From assembly GCA_030606485.1 (NCBI GenBank), contig JAUWGH010000008.1:1-64000 (forward strand): 64,000 nt of DNA. The letters are read 5' to 3'. The first letter of the stretch is position 1, and the number at the start of each line of letters is the position of its first letter. The notes beneath the pieces are model-generated. The model was not told where the DNA came from and searched no databases. It saw only the letters and a list, made by a program, of their open reading frames with translations. Positions 3,242-14,181 of this stretch are shown piece by piece. Both the position numbers and the translations under genes were made by a program. Source of the DNA: Promethearchaeota archaeon (lineage in GTDB: Archaea; Asgardarchaeota; Lokiarchaeia; Sigyniarchaeales; SOKP01).

Positions 3242-3592
3242 TTAAGTGGGTTTAAATGTAATTCCAAAAATTTCTTTTCCATCTAAATTTTCTGTTAATT
3301 TTTGAAATTTAGATGTTAATTTCATTCCAATCTTAAGATTCTCCGAGCTTATTATTTGTCCAATCGCTTTTAATCCATTGGAGTATTCTACAACACCAAT
3401 AGTGTAAGATTTTTTATCGCGGTATTCAGAAGGAGGTGCATTAAGAATTGTATAAGTTAATAACTTGCAATCCCCAGAAGATTTAACTGTATCAAACGTT
3501 GTATTTTTACATTGGATACACCGGAGATGGTCAGGATGTTGAAGTTTCCTACATTTTTTACATTTTTTCCAAACAATAGTTGTTTCACTCAT
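3242..3592 (-). CDS. DUF35 zinc-ribbon/OB-fold acyl-CoA-associated protein
   Basis: About 116 residues with the standard two-part layout. The N-terminal zinc ribbon has CKKCRK and CIQCKN, four Cys for one zinc. The OB-fold that follows has LLTYTILNAPPSEYRDKKSYTIGVVEY and a GMKLTSKF turn. Proteins of this family (COG1545) form complexes with archaeal thiolases and HMG-CoA synthase and are thought to help channel acetoacetyl-CoA. The likely partner is the thiolase at 6503-7666, same strand but separated by one large gene. I chose the ATG at 3592; a GTG three codons upstream is also possible. Confidence 0.8.
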   Translation of the reverse strand: MSETTIVWKKCKKCRKLQHPDHLRCIQCKNTTFDTVKSSGDCKLLTYTILNAPPSEYRDKKSYTIGVVEYSNGLKAIGQIISSENLKIGMKLTSKFQKLTENLDGKEIFGITFKPT

Positions 3593-3763
3593 AAATTTCA
3601 CATCTTAATATCTTCACTTCTTACTACTTCAAGAATCTCAAAATGTAAATATAAATTATTAAATAATAAGAAGAGGAGCTTTCTAATATTTAATATATTG
3701 AATATATTAAATTTATTAAGATTTTTCATGGAAAAAGAAACTTAATATTAGTATAAACTATCT

Positions 3764-6271
3764 TTAAGAATCATCAATACTTAAAAAAAATATTTTAAAT
3801 AAATCCAAATATTTCTCCCATTCTTTAGTTAATTGGGGATATTTTTGTTTTAAATAATCTAATAAATTAACAACAGAATATAAAATAAGAGGATCAAACT
3901 CCCAAGCATGGTATTTGTTAAAAGTAATACATTTAATTTTTAAATCTGAAATTTGCAACATATTCCTAAGAATTAATCCATAAAAAGCGACCTGAGGTAA
4001 AGTGCGTAAAAAATTTCTATCTTTTTTTTTTTCTTCATCTGGTTTATAATCACAAGCGTAAATAATTCCATCATAATAAAAAAGAAAATCAATATGCCCA
4101 CTAATATATCTAAATCCTACATTATAATATTCTACATTTTGCCAGACAAGAACTTCTGTAGCAATAAGGTTTTTATCCCTTTTTAAAAAAAATTTTTGTA
4201 ATTTCTCGTGATAAATGTTTCCTTGGTTGCTAAAATTTTCAGCAAAATCTTCAAAAAATGAGATTTTATAGTAATTTTCAGCAAAATTTATAAAATCAAT
4301 CAATTTCTTTCCTAAAAAAGAATTATCTCCTTTAATAATTAATTTATTCTTTTCTAATTTGTTTATAAATGAATTAATATCTCCTTTTTTAAGTGGTTTA
4401 TTCCGATTATGAGAAATTTTGAAATCGGAACAACAAGGATTAATAATTTTAAACATTTCTTTATCGAAAGACTTATTTTCTATAATATCAAATAGCTTAC
4501 CCAATCTCTTAGCTAAATCTTGATTGGATATTCTAAATAAATTATCATAATTGCATCTAAACAATAGACGATGCCATCGATAAGGTTCATTAGTAAAGCC
4601 CACTTTAAATTTAGTTTCAAAAATATCCTCTAAATCCTCAATTATTTCTTTAACATAGCTGCCATGAGAAAATAAAGTATCGAATTTTTCCGCTAAATAA
4701 TTATATCCTATTAATGTATCATATTTAGTTTGGATTTTAATAGTTCTAATTAACTCAATCATCAAATAGAAATACTTTTCAAACAAGTTATTTGTTTCTG
4801 GATTATTAATTAAATAAAATAATCTCCCAAATTTTCGAATATTTACATCTTTAATGTCTCTTATTTTTAATAATAACATATTATCAAAAAAATCATAAAA
4901 TTTTTCTAATACTTCAGAATTATTTATTAAAAAACAATTATTATCTAATATTTGATAAATTTCGCGATATAATTGTTTTAAAATATGAAATGGAATCTGA
5001 ATAGAATGTATATCATCATCAACTAATATTCTTGCGTTGCTTGTATACCATCTTTCATAGCCATCTTCTCCATAAGCCAATAAGAATTCATATTCATTAA
5101 ATAAATTCCTTAAAAATTGGATTATTCTCCGCGGTCCTAAAATGTTTTTATACTGTTCATTTATTTTAGTATAACTGCCATACATCTCAAAAAGTTTTAA
5201 AATATTATAAGCGAATTCTTTTGAGTAATCAATTATAGCTTTTTCGGTATAACCAATAACATCTGAAAGAGTAAGATTATATTTTTCGATCTCATTTATA
5301 ATACTATCTTTTTGAATATCCCATGAAATTGGCTCAATTTCTGAGATTATTCTATATATATCTTCCTTTTTTTGTATTATTATCAAGTTTTGTGTATAAT
5401 ATTTCATAGATTTCTTATCTAAAGTCTCATAAGTTAAAATATTAGAAGAAATATTAATAGATTCAAATAATTTTTGCAAACCATTCAGAAAATCTTCTGT
5501 ATTTTGAAATTTTATTGATAATCTACCATCAAATTTATCAAGATATTCTCTAAAACTTATATTATAAACAGATGCACTATTAATTATCCCTATTAAACAT
5601 GAATATATTAATTCATCATTTTCAAAAATCCAATTTGGTATCTCTCTTGTCCTTGAAGATATATTATCAATATACACTCCTAATGTTAAAATTTCATAAA
5701 CAATAACGGTTCTATTAATAGTAAAGTTCGATGTCTCTCCATTATCATTATAATTTACTATAAATCCATTGTCTTCTGATATGTTAAAGAGATCCAGTAA
5801 CAATTCTTTCAAATAATTAACATATCTAATATCTTTATGATACTTTTTATTGCAATAAATTACTAAAGAATAATGTGTACTTCTTGATTTCTTAATATAA
5901 ATAGAAGCTTGTCCCAATAAAATACCTACAAATTCAGCAACCTTTTGAGATTTTTGTAAATTATATAAAACTAAATCATTCCTTCCTAAAACTTTCAAAT
6001 GAGGAATCTTACGATTAGATAGTTTTTGTAATTTATCAAAATGTTCCAACGATATTGAACTTCCTCTATAAATTGCATTACTCAATTTTAAAGTATGAAT
6101 AGTATAGTTATTATAAGGATGAAGATTTTTAATTTTCTTAAAAATTTGCGCTAAAAACTCTTTTTTAACTATAACCTTTTCATTACTAAAATTGTATTGA
6201 TCCCTTAAAATGAATTTTCCATCGTTAAATAAAGCGTTTAGTTCCTTTTCATTCTCATATAGGAAATCCAT
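3764..6271 (-). CDS. Degenerate LAGLIDADG domain fused to a RecB/Cas4-like PD-(D/E)XK nuclease
   Basis: An 835-residue cytoplasmic protein. Residues about 55-90 resemble the small DNA-binding module before many archaeal LAGLIDADG enzymes (YRGSSISLEHFDKL). Residues about 111-275 follow the homing-endonuclease fold: EFVGILLGQASIY, a later IPNWIFENDELIY, then CLIGIINSASVY. The expected motifs are LLGDGSI and GLIDTDGSV, so both catalytic acids are missing. A long helical middle (about 300-670) is unrecognised. Residues about 684-770 carry a complete RecB-type nuclease: H688-E689, E706, GHID with D728, D741-Y-K743, and Q760...Y764. I infer a DNA-guided nuclease in which the old homing enzyme supplies binding and the RecB domain supplies cleavage. 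No CRISPR array or transposon is nearby. Confidence 0.75.
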   Translation of the reverse strand: MDFLYENEKELNALFNDGKFILRDQYNFSNEKVIVKKEFLAQIFKKIKNLHPYNNYTIHTLKLSNAIYRGSSISLEHFDKLQKLSNRKIPHLKVLGRNDLVLYNLQKSQKVAEFVGILLGQASIYIKKSRSTHYSLVIYCNKKYHKDIRYVNYLKELLLDLFNISEDNGFIVNYNDNGETSNFTINRTVIVYEILTLGVYIDNISSRTREIPNWIFENDELIYSCLIGIINSASVYNISFREYLDKFDGRLSIKFQNTEDFLNGLQKLFESINISSNILTYETLDKKSMKYYTQNLIIIQKKEDIYRIISEIEPISWDIQKDSIINEIEKYNLTLSDVIGYTEKAIIDYSKEFAYNILKLFEMYGSYTKINEQYKNILGPRRIIQFLRNLFNEYEFLLAYGEDGYERWYTSNARILVDDDIHSIQIPFHILKQLYREIYQILDNNCFLINNSEVLEKFYDFFDNMLLLKIRDIKDVNIRKFGRLFYLINNPETNNLFEKYFYLMIELIRTIKIQTKYDTLIGYNYLAEKFDTLFSHGSYVKEIIEDLEDIFETKFKVGFTNEPYRWHRLLFRCNYDNLFRISNQDLAKRLGKLFDIIENKSFDKEMFKIINPCCSDFKISHNRNKPLKKGDINSFINKLEKNKLIIKGDNSFLGKKLIDFINFAENYYKISFFEDFAENFSNQGNIYHEKLQKFFLKRDKNLIATEVLVWQNVEYYNVGFRYISGHIDFLFYYDGIIYACDYKPDEEKKKDRNFLRTLPQVAFYGLILRNMLQISDLKIKCITFNKYHAWEFDPLILYSVVNLLDYLKQKYPQLTKEWEKYLDLFKIFFLSIDDS

Positions 6272-6502
6272 TTTTAATTACTTCAAATTCATTTTGTTTT
6301 TATAATAATTTTAAAATGAAGGAAATAATAAAAACAAAAACTCTCAGAAAATATAGTATAAAATAATATTTACGAATTTTATCTATTTCATTTTTTTGAT
6401 TATTTAGTGTTAATTAAACTCATTAAAATCCTTTATATCAGTGGAAAGTAATTGTTAACTTCATATATTATGACAATTATTTCTAATTATTTTAATACAA
6501 AA

Positions 6503-7666
6503 TCACATTCTCTCTACTAATATTGAAAGTATATTATTCCCAAATCCCCCAAAATTACAAGTTATCCCAGTTTCCGCGCCTTCGATTTGTCTTTTCCCTG
6601 CTTCTCCCCTTAATTGCCATACTAATTCCACAACTTGAGCAACTCCTGTTGCTCCCAAAGGATGCCCTCTTGCTTTTAAACCACCTGAAGGGTTAATGGG
6701 AATTACTCCACCAATTTCCGTTAATCCCTCATACGCGGCTTTAGCGCCTTCACCTTTTTTGAAGAATCCCAAATCTTCACTCTGGATCGCTTCTAGTATA
6801 GTAAATGCATCATGGGCTTCACATACATCAATATCTTCAGGTGTTTTTTTAGCCATACTATAAGCTTGTTTTGAGCAGATTTGAAGTGCCTTCAAGACAG
6901 TTAGATCTTCACGTTCATAAACGATATGAGTATCTGTCGCCTGACCTACTCCTGTGATAAGGATAGGTGTATCACAAAACTTTTTTGCTATTTCAGCAGA
7001 ACATAAAACCATTGCAGCACCTCCATCTGAAATGGGGCAAATATCATATAATCGTAATGGATCCGCTATAATTGGAGAGGCTAATGCCTTTTCAAGAGTT
7101 ATTTCTTTTTGAAAGTGAGCATAAGGATTATTCATACCATTTTTGTGGTTTTTCACGGCAATACTTGTTATCCATTCTTTGGGGACATTATACTTTTCCA
7201 TATAAGTTCGAGTAAGCATTCCAGCCAAAGATGGGAGGGAGACTCCGTGAACCCTTTCAGCATTATGATGAGTTAATGTAGCAACTGCAGAGGTTATTAA
7301 ACCAGGCGTTGTAATATGGGTCATTTTTTCAGCTCCCACAACTAGGACCATATCACATGCTCCTGAAGTAATTGAATAAAATGCATTCTTAATTGCTGAT
7401 CCTCCAGATGCTGGTCCATTCTTAACGTGGTCAGCAGCTGCTGGAATTAAACCAATTCGGTCTACCACGGCACTTGCAATTGCGGTCATATGATTTAGTG
7501 TTTCTGCTAACATGCATGATACATAAACAGCATCAAAATCTTTATCGTTTGTATTTGAATTTTCAATTGCTTGTAATGAGGCATCACATAATAGATCTAA
7601 TAAATTTTTATCTTCCAACTTCCCAAATTTTGTATGTCCAACTCCTATTATCGCTACTTTATTCAT
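6503..7666 (-). CDS. SCP2-type thiolase (acetyl-CoA acetyltransferase family)
   Basis: About 387 residues, the usual length of archaeal thiolases. Residue numbers here count from an ATG two codons upstream, at 7672. The family is shown by EAHDAF (H287), NPSGGLKARGHPLGATG (H337) and a closing NFGGFGN. The enzyme would condense or cleave acetyl-CoA and acetoacetyl-CoA, at the head of the mevalonate route or in beta-oxidation-like chemistry, with a DUF35 partner such as 3242-3592. The odd point is the nucleophile site: family members read about ACASGG, but here it is GPASGG, with Pro87 in place of the reactive Cys. C372 lies near the second active-site loop. The protein may be a thiolase-fold enzyme of altered chemistry or a scaffold. 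Its promoter region is shared with the divergent zinc-ribbon gene. Confidence 0.85.
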   Translation of the reverse strand: MNKVAIIGVGHTKFGKLEDKNLLDLLCDASLQAIENSNTNDKDFDAVYVSCMLAETLNHMTAIASAVVDRIGLIPAAADHVKNGPASGGSAIKNAFYSITSGACDMVLVVGAEKMTHITTPGLITSAVATLTHHNAERVHGVSLPSLAGMLTRTYMEKYNVPKEWITSIAVKNHKNGMNNPYAHFQKEITLEKALASPIIADPLRLYDICPISDGGAAMVLCSAEIAKKFCDTPILITGVGQATDTHIVYEREDLTVLKALQICSKQAYSMAKKTPEDIDVCEAHDAFTILEAIQSEDLGFFKKGEGAKAAYEGLTEIGGVIPINPSGGLKARGHPLGATGVAQVVELVWQLRGEAGKRQIEGAETGITCNFGGFGNNILSILVERM

Positions 7667-7737
7667 AATCATGCATTTATTTTTTATTCAATTATTAATG
7701 ATAATATTTTGATTTATAAAAATTGGACTTAAGGATA

Positions 7738-8206: not shown

Positions 8207-11200
8207 ATGAAAAATCAAGGAGCCGAATCTAAAAAATCCACTTCAAAAACCAAAAAATTATCTAAATTTTTTAAAAAGATTCAAAATAAAATTTTAAGCA
8301 TTGATGAAAAAGCACTTTTAGAATTAGAAAGGATAAAAGCAATACCTTCCAAACCAATTTACAACTATTCAACTGAAAAAATTTCAATGGATTTAAATAC
8401 AAATGTTGAAGTGGGATTAAAACAGGACGAAATCAAAGAAAGAACTAAAGAATATGGTTTTAATGAGCTTCCAAAAATAAGAAAATCGATTTGGAAGGTA
8501 TATTTAGCGCCTATTTTTAATTTTTTAATTGTTATTTTGATTATTTCTGGAATAATTATTTTGATTTTGGGAGACCCAGCTTCTACATATATAACTTGGG
8601 GCGTAATTATAGCAAATTCATTAACTGCAATCATTCAGCAGTATAGAGCCCAAAAGGCGTTAGAGTCTTTGAAAAAAATCTCGGCATTAACTACAACTGT
8701 AATTCGAGATGGGACACAAATAGAAATAGAAACTCGAGAACTTGTTCCGGGTGATATAATAGTTATCAATCAAGGAGATAAAATTCCCGCAGATTCAAGA
8801 TTAATAGAAAGTATAAATTTATCAATCAATGAAGCACCATTAACTGGAGAAAGTGTTTCAATTGAAAAGAATGAAAATATTATCGAAAAAAAGGAGCTTC
8901 CCTTACAAAAACAGCTTAACATGGCATTTATGGGAACTTATGTTGCTACAGGAAGAGGGAAAGCAATAGTTGCCAGGACCGGAATAAGAACAGAAATTGG
9001 AAAAATCTCTCAAACCTTAAATGAGATGGGAAGTATAGAAGATATTCCATTAACAAGGAAAATGAATAATTTTGCTAAATGGTTAGTTATTATCGTATTT
9101 ATAAATCTCTCAATTTTGGTGATATATAAATTAAGCGTATTAGCACTACTTGATATTTTTACTTCTGAAAATATCAAAGGAGAATTAATTGCTGCAATAA
9201 TTAGATCTATGAATGTTATCCCTATAAATCTCCCTATTTTGACCACACTAGTTATGCTCACAGGAGTGCTTAATTTAGCAAAAACTGGTGTAATAATTCG
9301 AAACTTATCAGCAATAGAATCTATGGGTAGGATCTCAGTTATTTGTACAGATAAAACCGGAACAATCACAAAGAATGAAATGACTGTCATAAAATTTTGG
9401 TTTGACGATAAAATCTATGAAGTTTCGGGTGTTGGGTATGATAAAGAGGGAGAAATTAAAATTGATGGTCAACGAGCTAATTTTAATAAGAAAAATCATT
9501 TTGATTTTTTTATTACATCTATGGTTTTGAATAATATTTCTTCGATAATTGAAGAAGAGGTAAAAATAAAAGCAAAAAAAATGAAAACCAAAAGAATTAG
9601 ACGTGCTTTAGGGAGCCCGACGGAAGTTGCATTATTAGTATTGGCTGAAAAAGCTGGTTTTGATCTTAACAAATTAAAAGATGAATTTGAATATATTCAA
9701 GAATTTTCATTCGACTCTTCCGTTAAGAGAATGAGCACAATATATAAACCTAAAAGTAAGAAACAAAAAACATTTTATGCATTTGTAAAGGGTGCTTCTG
9801 AAATAATTGTGAAAAGATGCAATCAAATTGTATTGAATAAAAAAATTATATCATTAAATGATGATAAGCAATCAGAAATTTTGAATTCAATTAAGAAATA
9901 TGCAGAGAGTGGATATCGAACATTAAGTATTGCCTATAAAGAAATAGATAAACCTATAGCGAAAAATGAAAAATTTAATCGAGATGAAATTGAAATTAAT
10001 TTAGTGTTCTTAGGATTTGTAGTAATTTTAGATCCACCTCGTGAAGGAGTAATTGAGGCAGTTAAAAATTGTAAATCTGCAGGAATCGACGTGGTCATGA
10101 TCACAGGTGATCATCCAGCAACGGCCGAAGCAATAGCAAAAAATATTGACCTTTTTGATGAGGGTGATATCGTTGTTGAGGGAAAAAATATAGAGCTTTT
10201 ACCAATAGAAGATTTCAATAAAGTATCTGTTTTTGCGAGAGTGGTTCCATCTGATAAAGAAAAAATTATTAGTAGATACCAAGAACAAGATCGTATCGTA
10301 GCAATGACTGGAGATGGAATTAATGATTCTCTTGCACTTAAATTAGCTAATACTGGGATTGCAATGGGTATAACTGGGACTGATGTTGCAAAAGAAGTAT
10401 CTGATATGGTAATCTCTGATGACGATTTTATATCAATAGAAAAAGGAGTGAGAATTGGTCGTGGAATTTTTTCTAGAATTAGAGTAATAATATTTTTCTT
10501 CATTTGCATAAATATTGTGGAAGCGGTTTTCTTTTTTACTGCAGAATTTCTTCCTATTGAAGGATTTAAGTTGTTTAATAATTGGCAGCATATATATGTG
10601 TTTGCAATTGTCCATTCTTTCCCATCACTTGCTTTAGTAGTAGACAAAGTCCCAAAAGATATTATGAAAGAACCTCCAAAAAATGAGGAAGAAATATTAA
10701 ATAGGCAATTAATTATGTTATTAATTGTTCAAGCTGCTTTAATGGGTTTAGGATTTGCTTTATCATATTATTTAACGTTTTTTGGTGTAATACCTATAAA
10801 TGAGTTTAATTTGGATCCAAATCTGAGTTATATTTTGGCGCCCGAACTATATGGTTCAGATAGGTTAGTAATGCCAATGAGTTTAGCACACCAAAAAGCT
10901 AGAACTATGTGTATGACTGTATTATTTTTCTCTGAAACAACTTTTATTTGGAGTATACGACGTCCAAATAATTCATTCAAACAAAGTTTTGTCAATGAAT
11001 TCGACAAATATTTAATTAGTATGAGTATGTTTTGTGTTTTAATACACGTTTTATTTATAATATTTTCATATCCTGTCAATTATGCGATAAATGATGTTCT
11101 AGGTTTAAATTTTCAACTAAATTATATATTTTTAGGTCCAACAGATTGGATTTGGATCCTTGTTTTTGTTGCTCAAAGTGTTGTTGGAGTAGAACTTTTC

Positions 11201-11236
11201 AAATACTTTGCAAGAAAACGAAAAATATTTTTCTAA
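8207..11236 (+). CDS. P-type cation ATPase, first of a tandem pair
   Basis: A 1009-residue membrane pump with all cytoplasmic signatures: TGES (213-216), phosphorylated Asp382 in DKTGT, the MITGDHPAT hinge and GDGIND (702-707). The N-terminus is a Lys-rich extension of about 45 residues before the usual P2-type cation-ATPase N-domain. Ion-site helices are unusual. M4 reads IPINLP where Ca2+ pumps have PEGLP. M5 keeps N769 and E772 (ICINIVE), matching the Ca-pump N-xx-E. M6 has IVHSFP, with His803 where Ca pumps have the N-xx-TD acid. So three of the usual Ca ligands are absent and the substrate cannot be named. The next gene is a paralog 59 bp downstream, probably cotranscribed. Confidence 0.9.
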   Translation: MKNQGAESKKSTSKTKKLSKFFKKIQNKILSIDEKALLELERIKAIPSKPIYNYSTEKISMDLNTNVEVGLKQDEIKERTKEYGFNELPKIRKSIWKVYLAPIFNFLIVILIISGIIILILGDPASTYITWGVIIANSLTAIIQQYRAQKALESLKKISALTTTVIRDGTQIEIETRELVPGDIIVINQGDKIPADSRLIESINLSINEAPLTGESVSIEKNENIIEKKELPLQKQLNMAFMGTYVATGRGKAIVARTGIRTEIGKISQTLNEMGSIEDIPLTRKMNNFAKWLVIIVFINLSILVIYKLSVLALLDIFTSENIKGELIAAIIRSMNVIPINLPILTTLVMLTGVLNLAKTGVIIRNLSAIESMGRISVICTDKTGTITKNEMTVIKFWFDDKIYEVSGVGYDKEGEIKIDGQRANFNKKNHFDFFITSMVLNNISSIIEEEVKIKAKKMKTKRIRRALGSPTEVALLVLAEKAGFDLNKLKDEFEYIQEFSFDSSVKRMSTIYKPKSKKQKTFYAFVKGASEIIVKRCNQIVLNKKIISLNDDKQSEILNSIKKYAESGYRTLSIAYKEIDKPIAKNEKFNRDEIEINLVFLGFVVILDPPREGVIEAVKNCKSAGIDVVMITGDHPATAEAIAKNIDLFDEGDIVVEGKNIELLPIEDFNKVSVFARVVPSDKEKIISRYQEQDRIVAMTGDGINDSLALKLANTGIAMGITGTDVAKEVSDMVISDDDFISIEKGVRIGRGIFSRIRVIIFFFICINIVEAVFFFTAEFLPIEGFKLFNNWQHIYVFAIVHSFPSLALVVDKVPKDIMKEPPKNEEEILNRQLIMLLIVQAALMGLGFALSYYLTFFGVIPINEFNLDPNLSYILAPELYGSDRLVMPMSLAHQKARTMCMTVLFFSETTFIWSIRRPNNSFKQSFVNEFDKYLISMSMFCVLIHVLFIIFSYPVNYAINDVLGLNFQLNYIFLGPTDWIWILVFVAQSVVGVELFKYFARKRKIFF

Positions 11237-11295: not shown

Positions 11296-14181
11296 ATGAA
11301 CGATATTTATTATAACAAATCTATTCAAGAAATTCGTGAAGTTTTTCAAACTAATGAAAATGCTGGATTAACTGAGATTGAGGCTAAGAAAAGGCTCGAA
11401 TTATATGGATTAAATGAGATTCCTAAAGTTAAGAAATCTATTTTTAAAGTATATTTAGCACCTCTTTTCAATTGGCTTATAGTAATATATTTAGTAGGTG
11501 CTTTAATCCTATTTTTAGCTGTTGTATTTTTAGAAGAAGGAAATCTAGGAATAGTTTATTTAACTTTAGGAATTGTCGGAATGAATTGTGTCGTAGCAAT
11601 TGTTCAGCAATTTCGTGCTACAAAGAAGCTTGAAGCATTAAGACAATTATCTGCACCTACCACTGTTGTTATGAGAGATAGTGAAAAGAAACAAATACCC
11701 ACAAATAATGTTGTTCCAGGCGATTTATTAGTTTTAAATCAAGGAGATAGAATTCCGGCAGATGCTAGGATTATTGAATCCTCAAATTTATTGGTTAATG
11801 AATCTAGTCTAACGGGGGAGAGTGAGCCAGTAAAAAAATTAGAGAAAGGAACAGCTCTTAGTGAGGAAAAAATTCCTATTTCAGAACGGAAAAATATGAT
11901 GTTCTACGGAACATTTATTGCAACAGGAAATGGTAAAGCAATAACAGTTAGGACTGGTGGCAATACTGAAATTGGTAAAATCTCACATTTAATGGAAGAA
12001 GCAGGAACAAGTGAAATTCCTATAAGAGAAAAGATGAATAACTTTGGAAAATGGCTAGGATTAGCAGTTTTGATATTCTGGTTCGGAACGTTTATGATTA
12101 AATGGATTGCGAGTGGATTTACAACTTTTGAAATAGTAGATAGTTTAAACTCGGCAATGGACATAATGCCTATTAACATACCTCTACTTACAACGATTGT
12201 ATTATTAACTGGAGTTTTATTTATGGCTCAAAAAGGAGTTGTAATTCGAAATCTTGCCTCAGTTGATAGCTTAGGGAGAGTAAGCGTTGTATGTTCAGAT
12301 AAGACTGGGACTTTAACTAAAAACCAAATGTGTGTGCAATATATTTGGGTAAATGGTTCAATATTTAAAATTTCTGGAAGTGGCTATAATCCAGAAGGAG
12401 ACATCATTTTGATGGACGATATAAAGAATCCTAAAATTATTAAAAATGTAGAAAAATATCCTCAGTTGAAACTATTGCTGATTTCAGGGTTTCTTAATAA
12501 TAATTCAGCTTTAGTTAAAAAAGAGATTAAAACTGCCACAAAAGGTCAAAAATTTATTAATAAATATGATATAATTGGCTCGCCAACTGAAGGAGCCCTT
12601 AATGTATTATATCAAAAATCCATACAAGATTATAATGTTGATGAAGAGTTTAAATTCGTAAGAGAATACCCATTTGATTCTTCAATAAAAAGAATGACTA
12701 AAATATATAAAAAAGAAAAAGAATTTTACTCATTTACGAAAGGGGCAACCGAAGTTTTGATTCCGCAATGTAAACGAGTTTTATATCATAATAAAGAAGT
12801 TGATCTATCTGAAGACTTGAAACAGGAGATTCTGAATAATGTTAATAAATATGCAAACATGGGATACAGGATATTGAGTCTATGTTATAAAAAAATAGAC
12901 ATCCTATCTGAAAATCTCGAGGAAAGTAGAGAAAATTGCGAAAAAGATATGATTTATATTGGATTTGTTACAATTTTAGATCCTCCAAGAGAAGGTGTAA
13001 AAGAATCTGTTGAATTATGCAACAATGCTGGAGTAGAAGTTATAATGATAACTGGAGATTCCTCAAATACTGCAAAAGCGATTGCATCTCAAATAGCAAT
13101 CTTATCTGAAGGAGAAGTAGTAATAGAAGGGAGTCAAATAAAATCAATTGAATCATTTGAAGAATTGAATAAAATAAGAGTCTTCGCCAGAGTATCTCCT
13201 GAACACAAACAAGATATTGTTGAAAAATATCAAGATCAGAAGAAAGTTGTTGCGATGACAGGAGATGGAGTTAATGACGCATTAGCTTTAAATATGGCAG
13301 ATGCAGGTATTGCAATGGGAATACAAGGAACTGATGTTGCGAAAGAAGCGTCTGATATGGTAATTTCTGATGATTCTTTCATTTCTATTGTTGAAGGAAT
13401 TCGAGAGGGCCGAGGAATTTTTACAAGAATTCGAACAATAGCATTTTTTTTCATATGTATAAATTTATTTGAAGGTATTTTTCAATTTATTTTATTTGCC
13501 ATTCTAGGAATGCCATATTTCCTAACGGAAGAATATTTCTTACAATGGATATTCTTGTCAATTACTATTCATACTTTCCCAGGTCTGGTTTTGACTTTCG
13601 ATACTACATCTAAAGACATAATGAAAGAGAAACCTCGTGATTCCGAAGAAATTTTAAATAAAAATGTTATTATATTACTTCTAATATTTGGTGGATTACT
13701 TGCGATTAGTATGGGAGTTGTTTATTCTATTTGTATTACAGGAATATATGGCGTTTTTCCATTGAATTATGAATTTAATATTCTAAATGCTGGTTATCTT
13801 TTCACAACTGAAACAATGTTTTTGACTCCAGGTATTGATTTAAACGTTACTAAGACACTTACTATGCTAATGACCACATTATTTTTCTCTGAAACAATTT
13901 TAGTTCTACAAATAAGACGCCCTAATAAATCTTTAATAAAAAGTATAAAAGAAGAAAGTAATAAAAGAATGTATTTAATTCTAGGCTTTCTATTTGCTGT
14001 ATTTCTATTATTAATGTATTTTCCCGGATTTCAAGTAGGCTTAGCACATATCGGGATTAATTTCATGTTTATGTATCTAACCGCATTAGATTGGCTAATT
14101 TGTTTCTTAATTTCATCAATAACAATTGTAGGTTTTGAACTAGTAAAGTATTACGCCCGAAAAAAAGAAATTTACTTATAA
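11296..14181 (+). CDS. P-type cation ATPase, second of a tandem pair
   Basis: A 961-residue paralog of the preceding pump without its Lys-rich N-terminal extension. It has TGES (about 173-176), phosphorylated Asp335 in DKTGTLT, the MITGDSSNT hinge and GDGVND (about 656-661). It shares the odd ion-site set: M4 MPINIP (292-296), M5 CINLFE (N723, E726) and M6 TIHTFP (His759). Conservation of PIN(L/I)P and the M6 His in both copies argues that these residues define the transported ion rather than reflect decay. The C-terminus ends in a basic motif, ELVKYYARKKEIYL, a decayed copy of which lies at 14979-15026. It may act with the first pump as a pair of related specificity, or as a heteromer; that is inference. 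Confidence 0.9.
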   Translation: MNDIYYNKSIQEIREVFQTNENAGLTEIEAKKRLELYGLNEIPKVKKSIFKVYLAPLFNWLIVIYLVGALILFLAVVFLEEGNLGIVYLTLGIVGMNCVVAIVQQFRATKKLEALRQLSAPTTVVMRDSEKKQIPTNNVVPGDLLVLNQGDRIPADARIIESSNLLVNESSLTGESEPVKKLEKGTALSEEKIPISERKNMMFYGTFIATGNGKAITVRTGGNTEIGKISHLMEEAGTSEIPIREKMNNFGKWLGLAVLIFWFGTFMIKWIASGFTTFEIVDSLNSAMDIMPINIPLLTTIVLLTGVLFMAQKGVVIRNLASVDSLGRVSVVCSDKTGTLTKNQMCVQYIWVNGSIFKISGSGYNPEGDIILMDDIKNPKIIKNVEKYPQLKLLLISGFLNNNSALVKKEIKTATKGQKFINKYDIIGSPTEGALNVLYQKSIQDYNVDEEFKFVREYPFDSSIKRMTKIYKKEKEFYSFTKGATEVLIPQCKRVLYHNKEVDLSEDLKQEILNNVNKYANMGYRILSLCYKKIDILSENLEESRENCEKDMIYIGFVTILDPPREGVKESVELCNNAGVEVIMITGDSSNTAKAIASQIAILSEGEVVIEGSQIKSIESFEELNKIRVFARVSPEHKQDIVEKYQDQKKVVAMTGDGVNDALALNMADAGIAMGIQGTDVAKEASDMVISDDSFISIVEGIREGRGIFTRIRTIAFFFICINLFEGIFQFILFAILGMPYFLTEEYFLQWIFLSITIHTFPGLVLTFDTTSKDIMKEKPRDSEEILNKNVIILLLIFGGLLAISMGVVYSICITGIYGVFPLNYEFNILNAGYLFTTETMFLTPGIDLNVTKTLTMLMTTLFFSETILVLQIRRPNKSLIKSIKEESNKRMYLILGFLFAVFLLLMYFPGFQVGLAHIGINFMFMYLTALDWLICFLISSITIVGFELVKYYARKKEIYL

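Follow-up and report, generated by a model that had tools for sequence, protein, structure and literature searches.

One gene of the Lokiarchaeal DNA analysed here encodes a LAGLIDADG domain that has lost both of its catalytic acids, fused to an intact RecB/Cas4-like nuclease, and this gene is mobile. We consider it probable (roughly 70%) that the gene product acts as a free-standing homing endonuclease, with target recognition by the dead LAGLIDADG domain and cutting by the fused RecB/Cas4-like domain. That the LAGLIDADG part is now limited to DNA binding and directs the second nuclease, as the original prediction proposed, is the best inference from the data presented below.

Domain layout and the missing catalytic acids

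The gene lies in a window of 64,000 nucleotides (the whole stretch of DNA that was analysed) from the genome of a Lokiarchaeon, assembled into 13 contigs totalling 3.75 Mb, whose nearest named relatives are Candidatus Lokiarchaeota. On re-reading, the ORF at 3764–6271 on the minus strand was found to be intact, with the strand and the length of 835 residues given previously. The features of the region are collected in Table 1. By eye, the window also contains a pair of related P-type ATPase genes, side by side in tandem (8207–11236 and 11296–14181).

Table 1. Features of the fusion gene and its insertion site (positions in the window)
Feature	Positions	Strand	Content or basis
Fusion gene, 835 aa	3764–6271	−	N-terminal region, dead LAGLIDADG, helical middle, RecB/Cas4-like nuclease
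LAGLIDADG domain, residues 86–344, two repeats	5240–6016	−	Family profile 2e-83; model and Foldseek
Q121 codon, first catalytic Asp position of live relatives	5909–5911	−	Alignment
A233 codon, second catalytic Asp position of live relatives	5573–5575	−	Alignment
Helical middle region, residues 345–563	4583–5239	−	Alignment with live family members without the nuclease
RecB/Cas4-like PD-(D/E)XK domain, residues 564–823	3803–4582	−	H688, E706, D728, D741, K743, Q760, Y764
Insertion of ∼2.9 kb, missing from three congeners	3604–6508	.	Span counts one of two ATGTGA copies
ATGTGA, thiolase-side junction, includes thiolase stop TGA	6503–6508	−	Junction sequences
ATGTGA, DUF35-side junction, includes DUF35 GTG start	3598–3603	−	Junction sequences
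Thiolase, upstream neighbour cut off from its partner by the insertion	6503–7672	−	Pfam, congener comparison
DUF35/ChsH2-type zinc-ribbon OB protein, downstream partner of the thiolase	3242–3601	−	Pfam, congener comparison

Profiles built from the protein's own relatives delimited the LAGLIDADG domain (residues 86–344, 2e-83) and the nuclease (residues 564–823, 3e-91); as these profiles include the window protein itself, independent support for both domains comes from structure. Pfam gave no LAGLIDADG match in the 835-residue protein, and its PDDEXK_1 model scored 13.3 bits, below the cut-off of 22. Structure models were computed with five aligned sequences as input. The full-length model is of low confidence overall (pLDDT 52.5); one part of it matches I-DmoI and the other part matches MGME1, Cas4 SSO0001, RecE and RecB (E from 0.003 to 0.1). 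The model of residues 75–345 (pLDDT 72.9, pTM 0.76) contains two alpha-beta-beta-alpha-beta-beta-alpha repeats, and its best 50 Foldseek matches are all LAGLIDADG endonucleases, inteins or maturases, including I-OnuI (1e-7), the archaeal I-Tsp061I (TM 0.68) and the bI3 maturase. When the PDB was searched by sequence, the LAGLIDADG family profile found archaeal VMA inteins (E 4e-5); the nuclease profile found no match. The fold match on which the reading of the N-terminal half as LAGLIDADG had been made to depend was thus found, with the structure model and the Foldseek matches in agreement.

Residues 108–126 of the protein are SQKVAEFVGILLGQASIYI and residues 224–238 are SCLIGIINSASVYNI. In an alignment with live relatives, the positions of the catalytic aspartates are occupied by Q121 and A233, with the motifs reading LGQA and NSAS rather than the LGDG and DTDG of nuclease-free relatives. 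The predicted loss of both acids is therefore confirmed: the two-repeat fold of the LAGLIDADG class is present, the catalytic acid in each motif is not, and cutting by this active site would, judging from the sequence, not be expected. The LAGLIDADG domain has a net charge of −2, whereas that of each of the five other fusions described below is between +10 and +18; this does not favour DNA binding by the domain in the window protein. The middle region is also present in the live, nuclease-free members of the family with which it was aligned.

Across an alignment of 13 nuclease domains, H688, E706, D728, D741, Y742, K743, Q760 and Y764 are invariant, and the motifs of the class (H, E, GxxD, DxK and QxxxY) are all present. 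Of the active-site residues originally listed, only E689 is not conserved; H688, E706, D728, D741-Y-K743, Q760 and Y764 all stand. Together with the fold matches, this invariance upholds the description of the RecB/Cas4-like nuclease as intact.

Recurrence of the fusion and selection on the dead domain

Surveying 228 Asgard genomes, we obtained 44 distinct domains of the LAGLIDADG family, with live members in the same genomes as the fusion. Both acids are lost in all six domains fused to the nuclease, and both are kept in all 33 nuclease-free members that could be scored at both sites. The replacements at the two positions differ among the six fusions (Q/A, R/N, K/A and R/A). The Fisher p-value of 3e-7 for acid loss against fusion, calculated with kinship ignored, is a description rather than a test because the sequences are related. 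A scan of the genome contigs with the window protein alone found nothing; when the fused alignment served as the query, five named Lokiarchaeota loci were recovered. As six genomes carry both parts in one protein, the fusion is not an assembly join, an artefact of assembly or ORF calling is ruled out, and the possibility of separate genes joined by error, against which the prediction had been set, gives way to a fusion that is real and recurrent.

The LAGLIDADG tree groups all six fusions in a single clade, with support of 97/90 (94/72 without the motif columns). The association between acid loss and fusion therefore rests on few independent events. In the nuclease tree, the fusions fall in two places: five lie beside the loci L046 and L005, and the sixth, L100, lies among another set of long fusions. 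A single clade for all fusion nucleases is rejected (p-AU 0.002). Thus, either the fusion arose at least twice, with loss of the acids after each event, or a LAGLIDADG that was dead beforehand had its nuclease replaced. Both routes imply that a dead LAGLIDADG must be useful.

The dN/dS values of two pairs of relatives were 0.19 for the LAGLIDADG part and 0.18 for the nuclease (L037 and L045), and 0.23 and 0.29, respectively (L039 and L041). The low values for the LAGLIDADG part indicate that in both pairs the dead domain is maintained and is not decaying, and a pseudogene or decay is ruled out for these relatives. The term 'decayed', as originally applied, is therefore not appropriate, with purifying selection on the dead domain about as strong as on the nuclease. 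No close homologue of the window protein was found and dN/dS was therefore taken from relatives; by extrapolation, its own dead domain is probably also under purifying selection.

The insertion site and the exchange of modules

In three congeners (G001, G002 and G003), whose flanking sequences are 84–95% identical to the window, the thiolase stop codon overlaps or abuts the DUF35 start. The site is thus occupied in the host genome (G000) and empty in the congeners, giving the two alleles at one site that are expected of a homing element. ATGTGA is found at both junctions, so that the thiolase and DUF35 genes both keep their ends. The only long ORF in the insertion is the fusion gene.

Related genes show the same behaviour. 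A live LAGLIDADG paralogue in the host genome (L035:6045-7928, on G000:C1 at G000:C1:74086; motifs LGDG and DTDG) also lies in an insertion, flanked by a thiolase gene and an AAA-type ATPase gene, at a site that is empty in G001 and G003. Although both genes follow a thiolase, a common target was rejected as the thiolase ends and the insertion points differ. At L046:6214-8091, the same nuclease stands behind an unrelated, non-LAGLIDADG N-terminus, in an insertion that is again missing from three congeners.

Parts have also been exchanged between genes. L088:5481-9566 and L100:6053-10462 have ∼660 N-terminal residues in common at ∼80% identity (87% in the coding DNA), followed by a live LAGLIDADG in L088 and by the dead LAGLIDADG and nuclease in L100. 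A common N-terminus with unrelated C-terminal endonuclease parts points to a recent C-terminal exchange. A leader of ∼280 residues (MKAYTNVSRKTV...) opens the fusions L039 (L039:4279-5178) and L041 and has relatives at L175–L192; it is present in 19 of the 65 family genomes, at up to 8 copies in one genome. Elsewhere it precedes HNH_3 (L180 and L190) and live LAGLIDADG_3 (L186 and L188) domains, whose scores reach the Pfam cut-off, a sub-threshold GIY-YIG match in L177 (18.2 bits against a cut-off of 22.6) and intein-like homing-endonuclease domains. Such part-swapping is what would be expected of homing endonucleases, and the sharing of modules with ordinary homing endonucleases, taken with the absence of the insertion from congeners, is suggestive of a selfish homing element.

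Most Lokiarchaeal relatives carry about one standalone copy of the nuclease per genome, of ∼240 residues and without a LAGLIDADG domain; that of the host genome has 238 residues (L171:3939-4655, G000:C2:374944-375654) and is RecB/Cas4-like. The nuclease therefore has a function of its own. It is also joined to several unrelated N-termini, one of which has a helix-turn-helix match and possible zinc fingers. By eye, the helical N-termini of the long nuclease fusions L161–L168 (600–900 residues) resemble repeated cyclin-like (TFB-type) folds, for which Pfam gave no support in these N-termini. We regard it as an even bet that site-directed mobile nucleases of Lokiarchaeia form a natural modular class. 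In this class, one RecB/Cas4-like cutter, which most relatives also encode as a separate gene, would have acquired unrelated N-terminal modules on several occasions, at least two of them with a dead LAGLIDADG.

Alternative explanations, proposed mechanism and known systems

The standalone form of the nuclease raises the question of whether the nuclease is the active enzyme and locates its targets by itself (DNA ends, branched DNA or damaged DNA, as its RecB/Cas4 relatives do), with the dead LAGLIDADG serving only as a scaffold, dimerization or interaction domain. The net charge of −2 on the window protein's LAGLIDADG would also fit this. However, site-specific insertion requires site recognition, and the joining of the nuclease to other N-termini, including the one with the helix-turn-helix match, suggests that targeting is needed; we consider this explanation unlikely, although it is the strongest of the alternatives. 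Purifying selection on the dead domain would equally be seen in a domesticated host protein, such as a repair enzyme or a regulator (cf. WhiA), that is polymorphic by chance. Against this, the distribution is patchy (six fusions in 228 genomes), the gene is missing at the same locus in congeners and its modules are common to homing endonucleases, so that domestication appears improbable.

A similarly low probability is given to a defence (restriction-like) nuclease, or to a component of some larger mobile element, for example a transposon. PD-(D/E)XK domains are common in restriction, where enzymes such as PvuII belong to this group, and the standalone nuclease has a weak Cas4-like match in PADLOC. 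For the fusion itself, however, PADLOC gave no match to a known anti-phage defence model; no relatives were found in phages, plasmids or viral contigs; and the insertion, with its single long ORF, contains no methylase, no transposase and no convincing terminal inverted repeats, only the 6-bp repeat at its junctions. A transposon was rejected on the latter grounds. An intein was rejected since the insertion falls between genes and Pfam found no intein domain, and a group I intron with its maturase because Rfam found no intron RNA around the gene (no match in 3400–6700). The last two observations, insertion between genes rather than inside one and no Rfam match, also make it highly improbable that the LAGLIDADG is a maturase-like RNA-binding domain whose loss of acids reflects a shift to intron splicing, as in mitochondrial maturases. 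The LAGLIDADG model does match the bI3 maturase, and some LAGLIDADG maturases have no endonuclease activity (PMC3943268).

Under the preferred reading, a targeted homing endonuclease, the empty thiolase/DUF35 junction would contain a long site to which the dead LAGLIDADG binds, probably assisted by the middle region, and the fused nuclease would cut at the bound junction. Repair from an occupied copy would then place the gene between the operon genes with both frames intact, the outcome that is seen at the occupied site, and the insertion would split the site such that no further cutting occurs. The presence of a second nuclease would have left the acids of the LAGLIDADG domain free to go while the DNA-binding surface was still selected.

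If this is correct, it would be the first natural case known to us of a homing endonuclease without catalysis of its own being kept as the DNA reader of another nuclease; our search of the literature, which covered it in part, found no report of a natural equivalent. It would offer a testable path by which selfish nucleases change their cutting chemistry and keep their target, and genome engineering could draw on it for dead-meganuclease scaffolds that have already evolved. A concrete candidate target is provided by the site that is occupied here and empty in congeners, and the exchanges described above suggest that Asgard archaea contain many homing nucleases that trade parts and have so far been little described.

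WhiA is a host regulator of transcription with a helix-turn-helix and a LAGLIDADG-like domain that has no nuclease function. The fusion resembles it in the latter respect, but WhiA has no nuclease domain, whereas the fusion has one, together with a mobile gene. LAGLIDADG homing endonucleases (I-DmoI, I-Tsp061I, I-OnuI and the archaeal VMA inteins) have the same fold and ancestry as the fusion, which differs in the absence of both acids, cutting presumably being performed by another domain. PD-(D/E)XK is itself a listed homing endonuclease family (PMC3943268); the fusion is from the same catalytic superfamily, homing being proposed in its case, but its nuclease belongs to a RecB/Cas4-like subfamily and is attached to a dead LAGLIDADG. 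In the GIY-YIG, HNH and EDxHD homing endonucleases (I-TevI, I-HmuI and I-Bth0305I), the cutting domain is tethered to a separate DNA-binding region (PMC3943268), as is proposed for the fusion, where the binding region would be a former endonuclease. From what is related in PMC5751168, the closest analogue is an engineered one, catalytically inactive I-SceI fused to active restriction endonucleases (Fonfara et al. 2012). Both join a dead LAGLIDADG for recognition to an active nuclease of another fold; the engineered enzymes are man-made, whereas the Lokiarchaeal fusion is natural, mobile and RecB/Cas4-like, with a middle region between its parts, and would be the natural counterpart of a design that genome engineers built by hand.
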